A DNA stretch of 64,000 nucleotides from Flavihumibacter profundi. GTDB taxonomy: Bacteria; Bacteroidota; Bacteroidia; Chitinophagales; Chitinophagaceae. A model generated the notes under the pieces. It saw nothing but the letters and a program-made list of their open reading frames with translations, did no database searches and was not told where the DNA came from. Positions 11,842-43,005 of this stretch are shown one piece after another; positions within the stretch are counted from its first letter, which is position 1; every line of letters begins with the position of its first letter. A program made the translations under genes and the position numbers. The stretch spans positions 682,001-746,000 of the forward strand of contig NZ_JAIQXE010000002.1 of assembly GCF_020076305.1 (NCBI RefSeq), given 5' to 3'.

Positions 11842-12669
11842 ATGGTAAGCGTTCTTATAACTGCATATAATAGGGAAAAATATATTGAAGATTCTGTTCA
11901 AAGTATCTTAAATTCTAGATTTCAGGATTTTGAATTAATTATAGTTGACGATTGTTCTACTGATTCAACATATGAACTTTCAAATAATCTTGCAAATACC
12001 GATTCTAGAATAAGAGTATTTAGAAATGAGAGAAATTTGGGAGATTACCCTAATCGGAATAGAGCTGCAACATATGCTACTCGCAAGTATTTAAAATATG
12101 TAGATTCTGATGATAAGATTTTCCCTGAAACTTTAGGGATTATGGTGGAAGCCATGGAAACATATTCACAAGCCGCATTTTGTATTAGTGCCAGACCGCA
12201 TGAAAAATTGGAAATTTCACCTATTTTATTGAATCCTTATGAGAGCTATTACCAACATTTCTTTAAGGATGGTTTTATGGATAATGGTCCGCTTGCGGTT
12301 ATGATCAGAAGAGAATGTTTTGAAGCAATAGGAGGTTTCACTGGTAAGAGAATGATCGGAGATGTTGAATGTTGGCTAAAATTAGCATCCCGGTATCCTG
12401 TCATTAGAATAAATGGTGGATTGGTATTTTGGAGGCAGCACGAGGAACAGGAATTTAATAAAGGCTTTGATTATTATCTTGTGGAAGGATTGAGAGTTTA
12501 TGCAGAAGCATTAAATAGAAAAGATTGTCCGCTTAGTCAGGAGGAAATCCAGGTTGTTATTAAAAGAAAGAAAAAAGAACATTACAATTATCTTTTCCGA
12601 TTCCTTTTGAAAAGACAAGAGTTTAATAAGTCTCTTAGTCTTTTTAAACAACTTAGAAATATTCAATAG
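11842..12669 (+). CDS. GT2 glycosyltransferase, type A copy 1
   Basis: This 275-residue GT2 enzyme has VSVLITAYNREKYI at the N-terminus, VDDCSTDSTYEL, and VDSDD as the metal-binding motif. It is clearly paralogous to the protein at 13707: both share DFEL(I/V)IVDD, a NLGDY-NRN block, a GGF-GKRM-GD block, and WxRxHxEQExN near the end. Acceptor and donor are unknown. It alternates with the type B enzymes at 12703 and 15247, which suggests a duplicated gene pair. Confidence 0.9.
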   Translation: MVSVLITAYNREKYIEDSVQSILNSRFQDFELIIVDDCSTDSTYELSNNLANTDSRIRVFRNERNLGDYPNRNRAATYATRKYLKYVDSDDKIFPETLGIMVEAMETYSQAAFCISARPHEKLEISPILLNPYESYYQHFFKDGFMDNGPLAVMIRRECFEAIGGFTGKRMIGDVECWLKLASRYPVIRINGGLVFWRQHEEQEFNKGFDYYLVEGLRVYAEALNRKDCPLSQEEIQVVIKRKKKEHYNYLFRFLLKRQEFNKSLSLFKQLRNIQ

Positions 12670-34508: not shown

Positions 34509-35249
34509 ATGTTTTCCTTTTTCCGTAGTAAATCCAAACCAACAGTAGACCTCTCCGCCATCGGCACCGATATGCACTCACACCTGCTGCCCGGCATTGA
34601 CGATGGTTCACCCGATACTAACACTTCCCTGCAATTAATAAAAGGACTGCAGGAACTCGGACTGAACAAGTTCATCACTACGCCGCATATTCTCTGGGAC
34701 CTGTACCGGAATAATTCCGAAACTATCGGCGAGGCGCAGTCGCAATTGAAGAAGGCGGCTGGCGAAGAACAACTTAAATTGCCCCTTACCGCTGCTGCTG
34801 AATATATGATGGATGACCATTTTACCAGCCTCCTCAGCCGCAAGGAGCCGCTTAGAACATTTGGTCCGAACTATGTGCTGGTGGAATTTTCATTTGTCAG
34901 CCTGCCCTTCGAATGGAAGAAGATATTATTCGATATGCAGATCCAGGGTTACCAGCCTGTACTGGCCCATCCCGAACGATATAGCTATATGGGAACCAGT
35001 ATTGCCCCGTTCCGGGAAATTGCGGACATGGGCATATTATTGCAGGTAAACCTTAATTCCCTTACCGGTTATTACGGTAAGCCCGCTCAAAGCCTTGCCC
35101 AGGCACTAATTAAAAATAAACTGGTATCATTCGTTGGTACAGATTGCCATCACCAGCGGCACCTTGATGCAATGGGCCAGTCAGCCCAGTTGATGCAAAA
35201 CCTCCAGCCACTCCTCGATAGTGGCATGCTGCTGAACGGGCGCATTTAG
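34509..35249 (+). CDS. PHP-type protein-tyrosine phosphatase (YwqE/CpsB-like)
   Basis: The 246-residue protein has the PHP metal motif DMHSHLLPGIDDGSPD (21-36, with His23 and His25), then ITTPHI, VLAHPERY and VGTDCHHQRH. This pattern defines manganese-dependent tyrosine phosphatases that act on BY-kinases. Its natural substrate is probably the Tyr-rich tail of the Wzc-like kinase at 1635, more than 30 kb upstream at the other end of the locus. Its stop codon overlaps the stop of the convergent lipoprotein gene by 4 bases. Confidence 0.92.
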   Translation: MFSFFRSKSKPTVDLSAIGTDMHSHLLPGIDDGSPDTNTSLQLIKGLQELGLNKFITTPHILWDLYRNNSETIGEAQSQLKKAAGEEQLKLPLTAAAEYMMDDHFTSLLSRKEPLRTFGPNYVLVEFSFVSLPFEWKKILFDMQIQGYQPVLAHPERYSYMGTSIAPFREIADMGILLQVNLNSLTGYYGKPAQSLAQALIKNKLVSFVGTDCHHQRHLDAMGQSAQLMQNLQPLLDSGMLLNGRI

Positions 35250-36661
35250 CGCTCCACAGCGCCGATATCCCTCCTCCCGTTAATGTTTTTATCATAAAAA
35301 TCCCTGTTTGGCAGGCTTGAAATATCAAGGCCGTTATCTACAGCTGGTGAATTATCAAGTGGTGTATATTTTGCATCCAGCTTTGCATCCCCTAATAAAT
35401 TATTGGCCACATCCTGGTACAGGTAAGGCGTATCAGGAGAAGACAGGATATTATTCTTGATCTCTAAAATACCCTGGACAGCCATGCCTATCTTAGTTAT
35501 GGCTTTTCCCTGGTTCTGGACAATCGTGTTGTTATAAATCCTGATATCGTATAAAGCTGCAGCCCCGCCGATTGTTATCCCGCCATAATTCATTCCCTTC
35601 CTCGCGTCATTATTGGAGATATTATACCTGCAGGTATTGTTCTTCATGCTGTAAGGATCACCATACTCATAAATAAGGAATCCCGCGCCGTCATTTTCAT
35701 AAGCCAGGTTATATTGCATTACGCAATTCCAGGTACCACCATCAAGGTCAAAGCCATCCCCGTCAATTCCTGTTGTTGATTTGTTCCTGGAGGAAACCGA
35801 ATTCTGGATAGTTACATTTTCTGAACTATAAGCCCAGATACCTACATTACCGCTGCCAAATTCCCAACCGTTATTCGTAGCTGAACAGGAATCAATGATG
35901 CCACCGGATACATTGGCCATTATGATACCATGGCCGGAATGCGGCTTCATGCCCTGGATGCCCCTGTTGTGCGAAGTGGAGGAATGCTCGATCAGGATAT
36001 TCCTGTTCTGCCTTCCGGGCCAGGATCCTGTCATGTCAATACCCGCATAGCCATTGCTGTCAGCAACTGCATTCCGGATGAGGATACTGTCATAACCACC
36101 GGGATAGGCCATGGAAGCTTCAACACTTTCCCAGGCAACTGTAGGCGACATATCAAGGCTTGAATTAATGCCCGCATGGCCATACCCTTTTGCTACAATA
36201 TTGTCAATTACAATATGGGAATGCCTTTTCTGGTCATCAGATTTTAAAACAATACCGGAATTGGTTAAGGTAGTCAATACTTTGCCGGAGCCCAGTACGG
36301 TCAGGTTCCTTACCAGGATGTGGTCGTTATTGTAGAGATAAATGCCGTCTTTGGTATCGCTGAAAATAGTGCCGCCCTGGATGGTGATCATGGCATCAGC
36401 GGTGCCCGATTCACTCAGGACCAGCATGCCATTTACCGTTCCGATGATATTGATAGTGTCCCCGGGGCTGAAGGAAAAATTATTGGCTTTGTCGAGGTCC
36501 CAGGCCTGTTCGGGGGATAATCCGGTATTGCTTCCACTGCCATCCGCTTTTATAAAATAGCTGGGTTTAGGCACTGCAACTACTAACGGATCAGGGTTAG
36601 GTTTAGTGGCAATTTGCTTGGTACAGGACGCAAAAAGAAGGGCTACCAGGAGGTATCTCAT
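35246..36661 (-). CDS. Beta-helix repeat lipoprotein
   Basis: This 471-residue protein on the minus strand opens MRYLLVALLFASCTKQ, a lipoprotein signal with a likely modified Cys13. Repeats such as NILIEHSSTSHN, NVTIQNSVSSRN and ITIQGG mark a right-handed parallel beta-helix (PbH1/NosD-like). It should be anchored on the outer membrane or exported to the surface. Such proteins are often polysaccharide lyases or epimerases, but no catalytic set was identified. It is transcribed against its neighbours and shares a 192-base divergent intergenic region with the MerR-type gene. Confidence 0.8.
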   Translation of the reverse strand: MRYLLVALLFASCTKQIATKPNPDPLVVAVPKPSYFIKADGSGSNTGLSPEQAWDLDKANNFSFSPGDTINIIGTVNGMLVLSESGTADAMITIQGGTIFSDTKDGIYLYNNDHILVRNLTVLGSGKVLTTLTNSGIVLKSDDQKRHSHIVIDNIVAKGYGHAGINSSLDMSPTVAWESVEASMAYPGGYDSILIRNAVADSNGYAGIDMTGSWPGRQNRNILIEHSSTSHNRGIQGMKPHSGHGIIMANVSGGIIDSCSATNNGWEFGSGNVGIWAYSSENVTIQNSVSSRNKSTTGIDGDGFDLDGGTWNCVMQYNLAYENDGAGFLIYEYGDPYSMKNNTCRYNISNNDARKGMNYGGITIGGAAALYDIRIYNNTIVQNQGKAITKIGMAVQGILEIKNNILSSPDTPYLYQDVANNLLGDAKLDAKYTPLDNSPAVDNGLDISSLPNRDFYDKNINGRRDIGAVER

Positions 36662-36805: not shown

Positions 36806-36838
36806 TTGTTTAACTTTATGTCAACTTGAATTAAACAC
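36806..36838 (+). promoter_or_regulatory. Shared 33-bp element, copy 1 (upstream of carH-like gene)
   Basis: The element starts TTGTTTAA and ends ATTAAACAC, with TTT and TCA conserved between. GTTTAA (36808-36813) and TTAAAC (36831-36836) are inverted, 17 bases apart. Without gaps it aligns to the element at 37832-37864, matching at both 8- and 9-base ends and in the middle. TAACTTTA within it is close to the Bacteroidota -7 box TAnnTTTG. It ends 15 bases before the ATG at 36854. It is likely a promoter overlapped by a regulator-binding site. Confidence 0.6.
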
Positions 36839-36853
36839 GAAAAATGTGCGGCC

Positions 36854-37735
36854 ATGAATGCTTTCACCATCAAGGACCTGGAAAACCTTTCGGGAATTAA
36901 AGCCCATACCATCAGGATCTGGGAGCAGCGGTACAATTTCCTGAAACCCCAGCGTACCGATACCAATATCCGGTATTATAGCAGCGAGGAGCTGAAAGCC
37001 TTGCTGAATATAGCTTTGCTGAATAAATACGGGTATAAGATTTCCCATATCAACCGCATGTGTGCCGAAGAGATCCGCGACCGGATCGTTACCATCGGCA
37101 ATGCGGAGGCACAGCAGGAAAGGATGGTCAACGATATGATAAAACATATGGTTGACATGGATATTGCCGGCTTTGAAGAACAGCTCGACAGTTACATTGC
37201 TGCCCGCGGAATTGACAAAACCATAACACAGGTGATCTTCCCCTTCCTGGAAAAAATCGGGATATTGTGGTTAACAAACCACATCAACCCGGCCCAGGAA
37301 CACCTGGTTACCAACCTTATCCGTCAAAAACTAATAGTAGGCATAGACGGCGCCTTTTCACATGTAAGCGTAAAGAAATCCGTGCTGCTTTTCCTTCCGG
37401 AAGGCGAGCACCACGAAATCGGCCTCCTGTATACCTATTACCTGATGAAAAGCCATGGTATAAATGTGATTTACCTGGGCGCAAACGTTCCTTTGAAAGA
37501 CGTTGAATTTGTTGCGAACCTGAAGAAACCAGACTATGTGTATACCCACCTGACCTCGGTGGCCCACAATTTTAACTTCGAGAAATTCCTGCACAATTAC
37601 TCGATCCGTTGCGGCAAACACCCCCTGGTAATTTCCGGATTGCTGACCCAGCAGTACAAGAAAAAGGCACCTGAGAACATCTATTTTAAACGCTCACTGG
37701 CAGAAGTAATGGAATATGTTGCCAGTCTCCGGTAA
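36854..37735 (+). CDS. CarH/LitR-like MerR regulator with cobalamin-binding domain
   Basis: The 293-residue protein has a MerR winged-helix domain (about 3-70; TIKDLENLSGIKAHTIRIWE) followed by a B12-binding photoreceptor unit. Trp139, Glu149 and His150 fit the W-x9-EH motif of the four-helix bundle that caps adenosylcobalamin in CarH. Glu185-x-His187-x-x-Gly190 fits the ExHxxG lower-ligand motif. In CarH the protein binds DNA as a tetramer in the dark, and light breaks the cobalt-carbon bond and releases it. Its place immediately before an ECF sigma gene and carotenoid genes supports light control of pigment synthesis. Binding of the element at 36806 is inferred. Confidence 0.92.
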   Translation: MNAFTIKDLENLSGIKAHTIRIWEQRYNFLKPQRTDTNIRYYSSEELKALLNIALLNKYGYKISHINRMCAEEIRDRIVTIGNAEAQQERMVNDMIKHMVDMDIAGFEEQLDSYIAARGIDKTITQVIFPFLEKIGILWLTNHINPAQEHLVTNLIRQKLIVGIDGAFSHVSVKKSVLLFLPEGEHHEIGLLYTYYLMKSHGINVIYLGANVPLKDVEFVANLKKPDYVYTHLTSVAHNFNFEKFLHNYSIRCGKHPLVISGLLTQQYKKKAPENIYFKRSLAEVMEYVASLR

Positions 37736-37776
37736 ACGCTGCTGAGCTAATCGATGGATAAACAATGAATTATGTT

Positions 37777-37807
37777 TTGTTTTAGGTTTTAACAAAATAA
37801 TTAAACA
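37777..37807 (+). promoter_or_regulatory. Degenerate third copy of the regulatory element
   Basis: TTGTTTTA at 37777-37784 and ATTAAACA at 37800-37807 resemble the ends of the two 33-bp elements, but the spacing is one base shorter and the middle is not conserved. It may be a weaker second binding site upstream of the sigma-factor gene, or a chance match in AT-rich DNA. Confidence 0.3.
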
Positions 37808-37831
37808 AAAAACCGTCTCATTTAAGGTAGT

Positions 37832-37864
37832 TTGTTTAAATTTGGGTCAGTAACTATTAAACAC
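37832..37864 (+). promoter_or_regulatory. Shared 33-bp element, copy 2 (upstream of ECF sigma gene), with -7 box
   Basis: The sequence runs from TTGTTTAA to ATTAAACAC with the same inverted GTTTAA/TTAAAC core and 17-base spacing as copy 1. TAAATTTG at 37837-37844 is an exact TAnnTTTG -7 box. Transcription would then start near 37851 and leave a short leader before the ATG at 37871. No TTTG was seen at the -33 position. The overlap of box and palindrome suits repression by the CarH-like protein. Confidence 0.6.
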
Positions 37865-37870
37865 AAGACC

Positions 37871-38371
37871 ATGCCTAACGTAGATTTTAATGAGATGCTG
37901 GTGGACAATGCAGAGTTTCTACGTCCCTTTGCCATTACCCTGACAAGAGACAATGAAGCTGCACAGGACCTTTTCCAGGAAACCATGTACCGTGCTATTG
38001 CCAATAAGGAGAAATACAATGTTGGTACCAATATCAAGGCATGGCTCTATACCATAATGCGGAATATTTTCATCAATAATTACCGCAGGAAGGCCAAACA
38101 AAACACCATTTTCGACCATACCCCCAATGATTTCCTGATCAATTACAACCAGGTAACCACAGCCAATGCTGCGGAAGCCAACCTGAAACTAAAGGAGATC
38201 AATGAGGCTGTGCATAAATTACCCGAAATCTTCCGTAACCCCTTCCTGCTTTATTTCGACGGGTTTAAATACCATGAAATTGCGGATATGCTGGGTGAGC
38301 CGCTGGGTACCATTAAAAGCAGGATCCATTTTGCCCGTAAACTGCTTAAGGCACAAATCCAGCGTTATTAA
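37871..38371 (+). CDS. ECF-family RNA polymerase sigma factor
   Basis: From the ATG at 37871 the protein has 166 residues; a longer frame opens with TTG at 37832 but would run through the regulatory element. Sigma region 2 includes DNEAAQDLFQETMYRA and NIKAWLYTIMRNIFINNYRR. Region 4 includes YHEIADMLGEPLGTIKSRIHFARKLL. No anti-sigma gene is adjacent, so control is probably at the level of transcription, by the upstream CarH-like protein. The pairing recalls LitR-LitS of Streptomyces, where a B12-dependent MerR protein and an ECF sigma factor drive light-induced carotenoid genes. Confidence 0.93.
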   Translation: MPNVDFNEMLVDNAEFLRPFAITLTRDNEAAQDLFQETMYRAIANKEKYNVGTNIKAWLYTIMRNIFINNYRRKAKQNTIFDHTPNDFLINYNQVTTANAAEANLKLKEINEAVHKLPEIFRNPFLLYFDGFKYHEIADMLGEPLGTIKSRIHFARKLLKAQIQRY

Positions 38372-38397: not shown

Positions 38398-39867
38398 GTG
38401 AGTAAACAAGTTATTATTATAGGTAGCGGTTTCGCCGGTATGTCGGCTGCCGCTTTCATGGCCAAAGCCGGATGGCAGGTTACCGTTTTGGAAAAAAATG
38501 ACCAGCCCGGCGGCAGGGCCCGGCAATGGAAATCCGATGGCTTCACTTTCGATATGGGGCCATCCTGGTATTGGATGCCTGATGTATTCGAAAGGTTCTT
38601 CGCCCAGTTCGGTAAATCGGTCAGCGACTACTACGAACTCGAAAGGCTTGACCCATCCTACCGGGTTTACTGGCCCGATGGCCCGATGGATATTCCCGCA
38701 GGACTTCCAGCCCTCCAGGCCTTGTTTGAATCCATTGAACCGGGCAGCGCCAGGAAACTGCAACAGTTCATGGATGAAGCCGCCTATAAGTATAGGGTAG
38801 GTGTTCAGCGACTGGTTTTTAAACCCGGGCAGTCACTCACTGAATTCCTGGATTGGGAAGTGATCAAAGGCGTTTTTAAGCTGGATGTGTTCACTTCCAT
38901 GAAGCAGCACGTGCACAAATTTTTCCAGGACCCGAGGTTGAGGCAACTGATGGAATTCCCGGTATTGTTCCTGGGTGCGATGCCGGAACAAACCCCGGCT
39001 TTGTATAGCCTTATGAACTATGCCGATGTGGTTGGCGGTACCTGGTACCCCAAAGGCGGCATGTATGCGATTGTTGATGCGATGTACCGGCTGGCCCTTG
39101 AACTTGGGGTGGAATTTCGTTTCAATGAGGCCGTTACTTCAATAGAGTTGAATGCTTCATCAGCGCGATCAGTAACCACCAGCCAGGGCAGTTATACAGC
39201 CGATGTTGTGATTGGCGGCGCCGATTACCACCATATTGAAAGTGAACTGTTGCCTGCATCCCACAGGAGCTATTCCGCGGCATACTGGGATAGCCGGGTA
39301 TTGGCGCCAAGCTCCTTATTATTCTATGTTGGCCTCAATAAAAGACTCTCCAATATCCTTCACCATACCCTGTTTTTTGATACGCCTTTTGAAGCACACG
39401 CGAAAGAAATTTACCGCGAACACCAATGGCCCAAAGCGCCTTTGTTTTATATGAGCGCCACTTCAGTTACCGATAATACAGTAGCCCCGCCGGGGTTTGA
39501 AAATCTATTCCTTTTAATGCCGGTTGCGGCAGGACTGGATGGCGATACTACAGAAGTAAGGGAAAAATATTTTGACCAGATTATCCAGCGGCTTGAAACC
39601 CATCTTGGCCAACCGGTTAAGGATGCTGTTGTACTCAATCGCTCTTTTGCCCACAAGGATTTTAAAGAGGATTACCATTCCTTTAAAGGAAATGCCTATG
39701 GATTGGCCAATACACTTAAACAAACTGCCAACCTAAAACCCAATTGCCGGAGTAAGAAAGTGAAAAACCTTTTTTATACCGGGCAACTAACAGTGCCTGG
39801 TCCGGGTGTACCGCCCAGCCTGATCAGCGGGGAAGTGGTGGCAAAGGAAGTGATTCGAAATTTTTAG
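38398..39867 (+). CDS. crtI: Phytoene desaturase
   Basis: The 489-residue flavoprotein has the N-terminal dinucleotide motif GSGFAG (9-14) followed by VLEKNDQPGGRARQW, and the C-terminal CrtI motif YTGQLTVPGPGVPPSLISGE. It desaturates phytoene to lycopene at the membrane. The start is GTG at 38398, 26 bases after the sigma-factor stop. It is the first enzyme gene of the carotenoid run. A diapophytoene desaturase cannot be excluded from sequence alone, but the crtB-crtZ-crtY context supports the C40 pathway. Confidence 0.93.
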   Translation: MSKQVIIIGSGFAGMSAAAFMAKAGWQVTVLEKNDQPGGRARQWKSDGFTFDMGPSWYWMPDVFERFFAQFGKSVSDYYELERLDPSYRVYWPDGPMDIPAGLPALQALFESIEPGSARKLQQFMDEAAYKYRVGVQRLVFKPGQSLTEFLDWEVIKGVFKLDVFTSMKQHVHKFFQDPRLRQLMEFPVLFLGAMPEQTPALYSLMNYADVVGGTWYPKGGMYAIVDAMYRLALELGVEFRFNEAVTSIELNASSARSVTTSQGSYTADVVIGGADYHHIESELLPASHRSYSAAYWDSRVLAPSSLLFYVGLNKRLSNILHHTLFFDTPFEAHAKEIYREHQWPKAPLFYMSATSVTDNTVAPPGFENLFLLMPVAAGLDGDTTEVREKYFDQIIQRLETHLGQPVKDAVVLNRSFAHKDFKEDYHSFKGNAYGLANTLKQTANLKPNCRSKKVKNLFYTGQLTVPGPGVPPSLISGEVVAKEVIRNF

Positions 39868-39899
39868 TTATCTTTTGATAAGAACCTAACCTGTTGCTT

Positions 39900-40739
39900 A
39901 TGATGAACCTGTTTCATAATGTTTGTGAGAGCTGTAGCCGGACTACCACGGAACGCTATAGTACCTCGTTTTCATCGGCCATTAAATTGTTGCACCAGGA
40001 CCTGCGGCAACCCATCTTTAATATCTATGGCCTGGTTCGCTTTGCCGATGAGATTGTTGATACCTTCCATGAATACGACAAGAGTGTTTTACTGGCAGAG
40101 TTTAAACAACAGACCTATGAAGCCATCGAAAGGAAAATAAGCCTGAACCCGATCCTGCATAGTTTCCAGCAAACAGTGAATGCGTATAATATCGACCATG
40201 AACTGATAGAGGCGTTCTTTAAGAGCATGGAAATGGACCTCGATAAAAAAGCGTATGACCATAGTGGGTATATTGAATATATATACGGGTCAGCCGAAGT
40301 GGTCGGACTGATGTGTTTGTATGTTTTTTGTGAAGGCGACAGGGCATTATACGAGCAACTGAAAATGTCGGCCCGTTCGCTTGGGGCAGCTTTCCAGAAA
40401 GTGAATTTTTTGCGCGACCTGAAGGCGGATTACAAACAGCTGGACAGGGTTTATTTCCCCGGCTGCGATTTTTCCAATTTCACGGCCTGTGATAAAACCA
40501 AAATAGAAGCAGATATCCAGCAGGATTTTGATAACGCCTATAAGGGCATCATGCAATTGCCTGTAAAAGCGCGTTTTGGTGTTTACGTGGCTTATAAGTA
40601 CTACCTTTCCTTGTTCAAGCGCATCAAGCGCTGCCAGCCACAGAATATTTTACTGGAAAGGATTCGCATCCCTAACTACAGTAAAGCAGCAATTGTGGTG
40701 CGCGCAGGTGTGAAGAACCAGTTGGGAATGATCGGTTGA
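39900..40739 (+). CDS. crtB: Phytoene synthase
   Basis: This trans-isoprenyl diphosphate synthase-family protein has two Asp-rich motifs: FADEIVDTF for the first, and FLRDLKADYKQLDRVYFP for the second. It joins two GGPP molecules to phytoene. The open frame extends to a TTG at 39894, but ATG at 39900 (or 39903) is the more likely start; about 279 residues result. It is adjacent to crtI. No crtE-type GGPP synthase gene lies in the window, so GGPP must come from elsewhere. Confidence 0.93.
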   Translation: MMNLFHNVCESCSRTTTERYSTSFSSAIKLLHQDLRQPIFNIYGLVRFADEIVDTFHEYDKSVLLAEFKQQTYEAIERKISLNPILHSFQQTVNAYNIDHELIEAFFKSMEMDLDKKAYDHSGYIEYIYGSAEVVGLMCLYVFCEGDRALYEQLKMSARSLGAAFQKVNFLRDLKADYKQLDRVYFPGCDFSNFTACDKTKIEADIQQDFDNAYKGIMQLPVKARFGVYVAYKYYLSLFKRIKRCQPQNILLERIRIPNYSKAAIVVRAGVKNQLGMIG

Positions 40740-40762: not shown

Positions 40763-41311
40763 TTGGCAGAAAAGCAACTAAATAAAGATATTGTCCTGGT
40801 AGACGAACAGGATAATGAAGTGGGGACCATGGAAAAAATGGAAGCGCACCGGAAGGCCTTGTTGCACAGGGCATTCAGTGTATTCGTTTTCAATGCAGCC
40901 GGTGATATGCTGTTGCAGCAAAGGGCCCTCAATAAATACCACAGTGGCGGATTATGGACAAATGCCTGTTGCAGCCACCCTTACCCGGGTGAAACCGCAG
41001 GAGATGGCGCCATCCGTCGTTTGCAGGAGGAAATGGGATTTTCCACACCGATACAAAAGGCATTCACATTCTTATACAAAGCGCCATTCGACAACGGGTT
41101 AACGGAACACGAATTCGACCATGTTTTTGTCGGGGAATACGATGGGATAATAATACCCAATCCCGCTGAAGTAATGGATTTTTGTTACCGGTCACTGGAA
41201 GAAATTGAAGCATCCTTAAAATCGCATCCTTCCCGGTTTACAGCCTGGTTCCACCTGGCATTCCCGCGTGTGAAGGAATGGAAAAAACAAGCAGCCCTAT
41301 GCATTGGTTAA
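40763..41311 (+). CDS. idi: Isopentenyl-diphosphate delta-isomerase, type I
   Basis: The 182-residue Nudix-fold protein has TNACCSHPYPGE with catalytic Cys70, the Nudix-like GDGAIRRLQEEMGF, and TEHE at 114-117 for the acidic catalytic site. It interconverts IPP and DMAPP, raising supply for carotenoid synthesis. The start is TTG at 40763, 23 bases after crtB; no closer ATG preserves the N-terminal VLVDEQDNEVGTMEKMEAH segment. It overlaps the next gene by 13 bases. Confidence 0.93.
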   Translation: MAEKQLNKDIVLVDEQDNEVGTMEKMEAHRKALLHRAFSVFVFNAAGDMLLQQRALNKYHSGGLWTNACCSHPYPGETAGDGAIRRLQEEMGFSTPIQKAFTFLYKAPFDNGLTEHEFDHVFVGEYDGIIIPNPAEVMDFCYRSLEEIEASLKSHPSRFTAWFHLAFPRVKEWKKQAALCIG

Positions 41312-41784
41312 GTTACCTCGGGATAGTTTTGGTTACATTTATTATCATGGAAGGTGTTACCTGGTTGACACACCGTTTTGTGATGCATGGTTTTTTATGG
41401 TACCTGCATGAAGACCACCACAAAAAAGGCCCGGGATTTTTTGAAAAGAACGACTGGTTCTTTGTGATTTTTGCCATCCCGAGTATGGGCATGATCCTGT
41501 TAGGAACGCTTGAGCCGGCATACTGGTGGGTGCAGGCCATTGGCTTTGGTGTTATGGCATATGGCTTTGCCTATTTCATGGTCCATGAAATCATCATCCA
41601 CCAGCGATTCAAATACTTTACCCGCAGTAATAATATTTATATCAGGGCCATCCGCTGGGCCCATAAAATGCACCATAAGCATATTGAAAAAGAAGACGGT
41701 GAATCTTTTGGCATGTTGCTGGTACACCATAAATATTGGGAGAAAGTCAAAAAAGACCGTGAAAACACCCTTAAACACAAGTAG
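41299..41784 (+). CDS. crtZ: Beta-carotene 3-hydroxylase (di-iron, CrtZ type)
   Basis: From the ATG at 41299 the protein has 161 residues; an upstream in-frame ATG at 41278 lies deeper within idi. It has four histidine clusters: His25-x4-His30, His37-xx-His40-His41, His96-x4-His101 and His122-xx-His125-His126. This is the pattern of the membrane di-iron CrtZ hydroxylases. About four hydrophobic segments span the membrane. It hydroxylates beta-carotene to zeaxanthin, fitting the lycopene cyclase encoded next. Confidence 0.92.
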   Translation: MHWLSYLGIVLVTFIIMEGVTWLTHRFVMHGFLWYLHEDHHKKGPGFFEKNDWFFVIFAIPSMGMILLGTLEPAYWWVQAIGFGVMAYGFAYFMVHEIIIHQRFKYFTRSNNIYIRAIRWAHKMHHKHIEKEDGESFGMLLVHHKYWEKVKKDRENTLKHK

Positions 41785-41820: not shown

Positions 41821-43005
41821 ATGCAGTCTACATCACTTTACCAATATAAGTATTACGATTACCGCTATGAATACGACTATGTATTTACAGGAGCCGGTGC
41901 GGCCGGTTTAAGCCTCCTGATGCGGATGTTATTATCGGGGAAATTCCGCAATAAAACCTTTTTGCTCGTCGATAAAGACCGTAAAGACCAGAATGACCGT
42001 ACCTGGTGTTTTTGGGAAAGGGGCAAGGGCCTGTTTGACGAGATCGTTTACAAAAGCTGGGACGATGTTTGGTTTCATGGTCAGGGGTTTTCAAAAAAAT
42101 TCAGGATCAGTCCCTATCGCTATAAAATGATCCGGGGGATTGATTTTTACAACCATTGCATAAATTATATCAAGCAACAGGAGAATGTGATGATTCTTTT
42201 TGAACCCATTAAAAGGATCATCAACAAAGACAGCTATGCAGCCCTGGAGCTGGAAAACGGCGAGGGATATTACGCGAAGGAGTTCATGTTCAATTCCATA
42301 TTATTTGAGGAACCGCCAAAAGACGATAAAACACAAACCCTTTTGCAGCATTTCAAGGGCTGGTTCATTGAAACGGAAGAACCGTTTTTTGATCCTTCTG
42401 CCAGTACCCTGATGGATTTCAGGGTTAGCCAGGAAAGGGGTACGACTTTCGTCTATACCATGCCTATTGATGAGCGGAAGGCGCTGATAGAATACACTTT
42501 GTTCAGCGAATCCTTACTGGATAACGAAGTATATGAGCAGGGGCTTCATGACTATATCCGGGACTTTTTGAAACCCGGAAATTACACCATTACCGAAAAG
42601 GAATTTGGGGTCATTCCCATGACCAATCACCGTTTTCCGGCTGGCGAAGGCCGGGTTGTAAATATTGGTATGGCAGGCGGGCAGACCAAATCATCCAGTG
42701 GTTATACTTTCCAGTTCATACAGCGCCATAGTGCTGAAATGCTCGAATCCATGCTGGTGCATGGCACGCCGCGGACGCAATTAACCCATTCGGGTCGCTT
42801 CCGTTTTTATGACAATGTATTGCTGGATGTGCTGACACATAAGGAATTATCCGGCGCTCAGGTTTTCACCCGACTTTTTCGCCGTAATTCTGCCCAGCGC
42901 ATTTTCCGTTTCCTGGACAATGATACCATGATGGTGGAAGAGTTGCTTTTAATTGGAAGCCTTCCTACGCTTCCTTTTTTGCGTGCTGCAAGAAGGGTGC
43001 TTTAA
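41821..43005 (+). CDS. crtY: Lycopene beta-cyclase
   Basis: This 394-residue flavoprotein has YVFTGAGAAGLSLLMRML (20-37) with the dinucleotide motif GAGAAG, then LLVDKDRKDQNDRTWCFWE, typical of CrtY. The later block VVNIGMAGGQTKSSSGYTF is the second conserved region. It cyclises both ends of lycopene to beta-carotene. It starts 36 bases after crtZ and closes the carotenoid gene run. Confidence 0.92.
   Translation: MQSTSLYQYKYYDYRYEYDYVFTGAGAAGLSLLMRMLLSGKFRNKTFLLVDKDRKDQNDRTWCFWERGKGLFDEIVYKSWDDVWFHGQGFSKKFRISPYRYKMIRGIDFYNHCINYIKQQENVMILFEPIKRIINKDSYAALELENGEGYYAKEFMFNSILFEEPPKDDKTQTLLQHFKGWFIETEEPFFDPSASTLMDFRVSQERGTTFVYTMPIDERKALIEYTLFSESLLDNEVYEQGLHDYIRDFLKPGNYTITEKEFGVIPMTNHRFPAGEGRVVNIGMAGGQTKSSSGYTFQFIQRHSAEMLESMLVHGTPRTQLTHSGRFRFYDNVLLDVLTHKELSGAQVFTRLFRRNSAQRIFRFLDNDTMMVEELLLIGSLPTLPFLRAARRVL

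Follow-up and report, generated by a model that had tools for sequence, protein, structure and literature searches.

What does the inverted repeat that stands ahead of a CarH-like B12-type regulator gene, and again ahead of the adjoining ECF sigma factor gene, do in Flavihumibacter profundi, and which protein reads it? The window (the whole stretch of 64,000 nucleotides analysed here) carries on its plus strand, in this order, a carH-like gene, an ECF sigma gene, crtI, a crtB-like gene, idi, a probable crtZ and a crtY-like gene. The features of the locus are as follows.

36807..36837, plus strand: predicted operator O-carH, TGTTTAA-N17-TTAAACA, ahead of carH (at about -45 in Flavihumibacter)
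36854..37735, plus strand: CarH-like regulator, 293 aa (Pfam: MerR DNA-binding domain, B12-binding helix bundle and, scoring under the Pfam gathering threshold, B12-binding domain)
37777..37807, plus strand: predicted distal operator O2, GTTTTA-N16-TTAAAC, one mismatch, positioned as in relatives
37833..37863, plus strand: predicted proximal operator O1, TGTTTAA-N17-TTAAACA, ahead of the ECF sigma gene
37871..38371, plus strand: ECF sigma factor, 166 aa (Pfam, NCBIfam)
38398..39867, plus strand: crtI-type phytoene desaturase, first gene past sigma (NCBIfam CrtID, 751 bits over a cut-off of 640)
39894..40739, plus strand: crtB-like phytoene synthase (Pfam SQS_PSY)
40763..41311, plus strand: idi, isopentenyl-diphosphate isomerase (NCBIfam)
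41278..41784, plus strand: probable carotene hydroxylase, crtZ-like (position and look of the sequence)
41821..43005, plus strand: lycopene cyclase, crtY-like (Pfam Lycopene_cycl)

The frame at 41278..41784 has no Pfam or NCBIfam match, and its crtZ-like name is what we take it to be from its position and sequence. On the other side of carH, a beta-helix protein gene on the minus strand (35246-36661) separates it from a CpsB/CapC-like gene (34509-35249); in many relatives the CpsB/CapC-like gene and carH are close neighbours. The sigma gene ends at 38371 and crtI starts at 38398, which leaves a gap of 26 nt, and the gap is shorter than 40 nt in 36 of the 68 named relatives' loci described below. 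Because these gaps are so short, the crt genes probably belong to the sigma operon, and the predicted operator would then probably control them through co-transcription as well. A target promoter shared by the sigma factor's genes was sought by eye in the sigma-crtI gaps, where no constant second box was seen; TTTCTAAC recurs ahead of crtI in the gaps of L050, L051, L053-L055 and L082 and is possibly part of a target promoter of the ECF sigma factor.

Copies of the element in the window and in relatives

The earlier note had described two ungapped copies at 36806-36838 and 37832-37864. Both are present, with 24 of 33 aligned columns identical, and each holds the core GTTTAA-N17-TTAAAC with the spacing of 17 that had been claimed for it. 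The unit of 33 bp with shared TTT and TCA did not survive in that form: the conserved unit is about 31 bp long with a spacer of N16 or N17, the TTT is part of a -7-like box and the TCA is not conserved. The degenerate third copy is also there, 55 bp above O1, and corresponds to the distal site of relatives, its spacer being N16.

The pattern of bases shared by both copies, with up to 3 mismatches allowed, occurs at 2 places in the window, just those copies (mean of 0.00 in 100 shuffles). The bare 6+6 core with N15-19 is not special in this genome, as it occurs at 6 places in 4.87 Mb versus 5 for the reversed control; a 6+6 core at window position 12621 lies inside a glycosyltransferase-like gene and was not counted as an operator. 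With one extra base per arm (TGTTTAA-N16/17-TTAAACA), the pattern is found at 2 places in the genome, both of them the window copies, and nowhere in the reversed control. When this extended pattern was searched in 13 genomes of the same genus, 23 of 26 exact matches were ahead of carH or sigma, with 1 match in total in the reversed control. The 3 other matches, one each in G004, G005 and G009, are near-identical in sequence, the one in G004 (L031) lying inside an oxidoreductase-like gene, and were not counted as operators. Over 60 genomes there were 57 exact matches versus 11 in the reversed control; by a hand count, 41 of the 57 map to carH or sigma loci, including one within the carH gene itself, and one could not be assigned.

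The earlier note had proposed a search of Bacteroidota genomes for the element at carH-like and ECF sigma loci, and had staked its reading on conservation there. A sigma gene linked to carH and downstream of it is present in 68 of 80 named Chitinophagaceae-type loci; the remaining 12 were dropped because no sigma gene follows carH in the stretch, and in 5 of these the contig ends less than 300 nt below carH. The sigma-proximal site occurs in every one of the 68, perfect in 57 and with a single mismatch in 11, at 31-42 nt ahead of the sigma ATG, and shuffling each locus once produced no site at 0-1 mismatch; comparison thus shows that both the element and its position are conserved. A distal site with 0-1 mismatch lies 55-57 nt above the proximal one in 36 of the 68 loci. 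The copy ahead of carH is perfect in 10 of the 68 and has one mismatch in 12, and 9 of the 10 perfect copies belong to L049-L057, a Flavihumibacter-like group. The copy ahead of sigma is the rule, and the carH copy is perfect mainly in that group. A blind search of the same upstream regions for 6-bp inverted repeats returned TGTTTA..TAAACA in 54 of 56 non-redundant loci. Over the 56 loci the arms are TGTTTAA and TTAAACA, with a spacer of 17 in 39 loci and 16 in 17.

Beyond the family, 60 loci of the order and class were divided into 37 with a sigma homolog in the stretch, one of which belongs to the same family, and 23 without. The site was found at most 150 nt above sigma in 36 of the 37 (reversed control 1/37), and near carH in 5 of the 23; for the other 18, all outside the family, the region from 350 nt above carH to 800 nt below it is free of the site. 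At the class level the site therefore goes with sigma-linked carH loci, and the CarH proteins of the loci that lack both may act elsewhere or read another site. In 40 class loci, hand-picked to span families, 24 have a site near carH or sigma, and 59 sites at 0-1 mismatch were counted versus 9 in the reversed sequences. Three class-level loci (L300, 3092; L305, 3112; L309, 3003) repeat the site ahead of a folE-like (GTP cyclohydrolase I-like) gene just past sigma, which is followed by SDR- or photolyase-like genes (names given by the look of the sequence). The folE-like and photolyase-like neighbours in these three Bacteroidia loci suggest a wider light regulon.

Overlap of the sites with a -7-like box

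A -7 box overlapping the left half-site had been claimed for both copies, and this was borne out. The left arm of O-carH overlaps the -7-like box TAACTTTA (36811-36818), and that of O1 overlaps TAAATTTG (37837-37844), the right arm of O1 lying in the inferred leader. The same overlap emerges from comparison of the 56 non-redundant loci, in which the left arm GTTTAA runs on into a TAAnTTT-like box, mostly TAA(C/A/T)TT(T/C)(G/A); a TTG lies 22-23 nt above the box in a minority of them. The -7 consensus given in the parts of PMC7366714 available to us is TAnnTTTG, which was deduced for Bacteroides fragilis and has been confirmed for Flavobacterium johnsoniae, a species in which no -33 motif was identified. 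A sigma-70 scan gave no promoter at either window site and no excess over shuffles. A protein on the proximal site would cover both the -7-like box and the inferred leader and would thus be expected to keep the housekeeping polymerase out. Cooperative binding is suggested by the presence of the distal site.

The recurrence of bare 6+6 cores by chance in this genome would agree with a chance origin of the element, or with an RNA-level feature such as a leader hairpin. Both are hardly conceivable and were rejected: the element is conserved and exceeds its shuffled and reversed controls, and the left arm of a hairpin, which overlaps the -7-like box, would not be transcribed.

Presence of the site with and without carH

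The spacing of 16 or 17 is promoter-like and the element stands ahead of the sigma gene, as would be expected if it were the autoregulatory promoter of the ECF sigma factor, with -35 and -10 boxes 16-17 bp apart; the class-level association with sigma (36/37 loci, versus 5/23 lacking a sigma hit) also speaks for this reading. Within the family, the two genes can be told apart. Of 294 Chitinophagaceae genomes 207 are sigma-positive, and 125 of these, chosen by the analyst to include nearly all of the listed carH-lacking genomes and part of the carH-linked ones, were examined for a site at the sigma promoter. A site with at most one mismatch was found in 78 of 80 genomes with a carH ortholog versus 2 of 38 without (Fisher p 2e-25, a value not corrected for the kinship of the genomes). 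Seven further genomes with a CarH of 40-45% identity were kept out of this comparison; 5 have the site, and G334 and G207 do not have it at sigma. Reversed sequences of the 125 sigma promoters gave 0/125 at 0-1 mismatch.

Among the exceptions, G302 and G133, carH-positive members of one genus, have 2-3 mismatches at sigma; G302 was classed as carH-positive on a carH fragment at a contig start and counted as a miss. G036 and G048, which have no carH ortholog, carry a site with 0-1 mismatch; the contig of G036 begins 325 nt above sigma, and the site in G048 is perhaps a relic. Eight genera hold both carH states, and six of them separate cleanly. Another, g35, is a tie, its carH-lacking member being one mismatch off and so equal to one carH bearer; in the last, g7, two of six bearers of the more distant CarH are also without the site.

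The site also persists where the gene order is different. When carH is present and not adjacent to sigma, the site is still found at sigma, in 13 of 13 cases. Comparison likewise places it at some loci where no sigma was detected nearby: of five such carH-crtI loci, four carry it, ahead of carH or between carH and crtI, and one, L168, has none. In G334 the site lies between divergent carH and crtI genes and is absent from the unlinked sigma gene. The within-family contrast between carH-bearing and carH-lacking genomes points to a site that follows CarH more than the sigma gene, and thus to CarH rather than the sigma factor as its probable reader.

These observations led us to reject an ECF promoter, which is very improbable: four loci without a detected sigma have the site ahead of carH or crtI, and close sigma orthologs in carH-less genomes mostly lack it. 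Moreover, the right arm ends a few nt ahead of the ATG in several loci (e.g., TTAAACAAAATG in L087), too close to leave room for an ECF -10 box and a start site downstream, and the element is symmetric and doubled. The co-occurrence of carH and site is a correlation, which a different regulator travelling with carH and binding the element could also produce. We consider such a regulator improbable, as the site is kept where carH and sigma are apart, occurs in divergent and sigma-less gene orders that have carH in common, and has arms that fit the known CarH half-site. Since the site is conserved in relatives and mostly gone without carH, it is probably the DNA switch of CarH. Of the proposal in the earlier note that one operator serves a regulator of both itself and the sigma factor, the shared operator over both promoters stands, most likely read by CarH; the part on self-control is narrower, as 10 of the 68 named loci have a perfect copy ahead of carH and 12 are one mismatch off.

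More distant members of the protein family were also surveyed. Most distant CarH paralogs in the Chitinophagaceae (about 31-42%) have no site nearby. At the loci of a second CarH paralog in this range, which many genomes possess (L149, L151-L153, L155-L157, L159-L162, L164, L165 and L276-L283) the stretch holds no such repeat, and the Gly of ExHxxG is lost in many distant CarH homologs. At L213 (G049), a sigma gene 83% identical to that of the window adjoins a 31% CarH paralog and the best operator match has two mismatches and lies at another place; a regulator swap is possible there. Genome searches also returned carH-like frames with one in-frame stop (G186:C8, G309:C95, G370:C47 and G637:C6).

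The CarH-like protein, its proposed switch and known systems

The window protein joins a MerR DNA-binding domain to a cobalamin-binding region, as in CarH/LitR class I. Its best PDB hits by sequence are Thermus CarH (E about 1e-23), and its AlphaFold model (mean pLDDT 89.5) has as first match 5c8e, Thermus CarH on DNA, at a TM of about 0.56 with the domains shifted. The Rossmann B12-binding model scores 26.1 on it, below the gathering score of 32.1, and the NCBIfam CarH equivalog scores 110, below the cut-off of 400. Residues were counted on the 80 named loci, as the 107-row CarH alignment has some genomes twice. The W-x9-EH and ExHxxG motifs, with the equivalents of Trp131, Glu141, His142 and His177 (the lower-ligand His), are found in 80/80, and the Gly of ExHxxG in 79/80; the residues that correspond to cobalamin contacts of the dark state are thereby retained. 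Set against the wing motif TxTNIR, operator counts were 100 with and 22 without the site, against 22 and 39, a trend only under a crude motif rule.

In the window protein, Leu (residue 140) occupies the position that is His132 in Thermus CarH. This position reads L, V, Q, M or I across the 80 named loci and is His in none of them, in 0/20 order-level rows and in 1/40 class-level rows; two family rows outside the named set have His there. A His four residues past the Trp is present in 71 of the 80. In the portions of PMC10442372 that we consulted, His132 of Thermus CarH becomes the cobalt ligand after photolysis, and most of the H132A protein remained a tetramer under light; an earlier report cited there had full-length H132A Thermus CarH still coming apart in light. 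The absence of His132 makes light release by the Thermus route doubtful here; the switch may instead involve another ligand, loss of the adenosyl group by itself, or B12 sensing alone. The cobalamin adenosyltransferase family PF01923 is present in the genome, so that the cell is probably able to make adenosylcobalamin from cobalamin.

The CarH-like protein could accordingly read the operator but sense cobalamin or redox state, or act as an activator, and not be a light-released repressor. In favour of this is the replacement of His132, a residue tied to light-triggered tetramer breakdown in the Thermus protein (PMC10442372, in the part seen). We judge it unlikely, since the sites cover the -7-like box and leader, the usual place of a repressor, the neighbours are carotenoid genes and, in some class-level loci, folE- and photolyase-like genes, and the earlier report has H132A falling apart in light even though PMC10442372, as far as its available text goes, found most of it tetrameric.

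In its general features the locus resembles those of CarH of Thermus thermophilus and Bacillus megaterium and of CarA/CarH of Myxococcales: domain architecture, W-x9-EH and the His of ExHxxG, a carotenoid neighbourhood, an operator overlapping promoter elements and the half-site TnnACA. From the accessible part of PMC9304148, the operators known for CarH contain that half-site in 11-bp direct repeats and pseudo-repeats arranged in tandem, some having only one or two full repeats, and direct rather than inverted repeats, the latter once proposed, are suggested as the feature recognised by Myxococcus CarA. The arms here are, unlike those, inverted, with centres 22-23 bp apart; each arm, read TAAACA, fits TnnACA, and direct 11-bp TnnACA pairs occur in 1 of 56 loci with 0.6 expected, i.e. 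at chance, so that it is the inverted arrangement that is conserved. A further difference from Thermus CarH is the replaced His132. In 19 pairs of sites, which with one exception come from outside the family, the two members lie 33.5-35.5, 39, 41-43, 53-57, 63-66 or 85-87.5 bp apart. Of five periods tried, 10.5-11 bp gives a phasing of R 0.54-0.57, with p roughly 0.002-0.004; four pairs from within the family, spaced 36.5-37 bp, fall out of helical register. This is a weak sign, suggestive only, of same-face binding.

The locus also recalls LitR-LitS of Streptomyces coelicolor, in which a B12-type MerR regulator lies beside ECF sigma and crt genes. There, in the sections of PMC12705666 seen, litS is transcribed in light under the positive control of LitR, and transcription from the crtE promoter is carried out by the LitS holoenzyme; unlike that system, sigma and crtI here are 26 nt apart in one probable operon. 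The earlier note had found both element and arrangement unfamiliar in Bacteroidota. The gene content has been described, in a merR-rpoE-crt cluster of Echinicola (Bacteroidota), in a report that, in the part available, gives genes and their order without an operator or light control (PMC8683446); the element itself was not found in the open-licence literature, nor was any CarH operator from Bacteroidota. The site thus appears to be a variant of the CarH kind of operator that is new to that literature, and not a standard member.

Taken together, we consider it quite probable, from sequence comparison, that the element is the operator of the CarH-like protein, through which that protein would block the sigma-crt operon and also, in Flavihumibacter, the carH gene. 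We infer, in addition, binding by CarH, repression, and switching by cobalamin and light. In the dark, cobalamin-loaded CarH on O1 and O2 would bar RNA polymerase with the housekeeping sigma from the sigma-crt operon; in Flavihumibacter, CarH would occupy the carH promoter too, giving negative autoregulation. Light would break the adenosylcobalamin and release CarH, allowing joint production of the sigma factor and the crt enzymes, and the sigma factor may thereafter regulate other genes. With moderate confidence, we further propose that the Bacteroidia CarH proteins form a distinct branch of B12 regulators, which would read an inverted repeat (often in two copies, in rough helical register) in place of tandem direct repeats and switch without His132. 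Their targets would be an ECF sigma-carotenoid operon and, for some lineages, also a cluster of folE and photolyase genes.

The element offers a defined and testable candidate operator for B12-type regulators in Bacteroidota, one that departs from the direct-repeat rule of Thermus, Bacillus and the myxobacteria, and it predicts targets from sequence alone. A CarH that lacks His132 also poses the problem of how such a protein would respond to light, and the element may serve as a compact operator for optogenetics in Bacteroidota.
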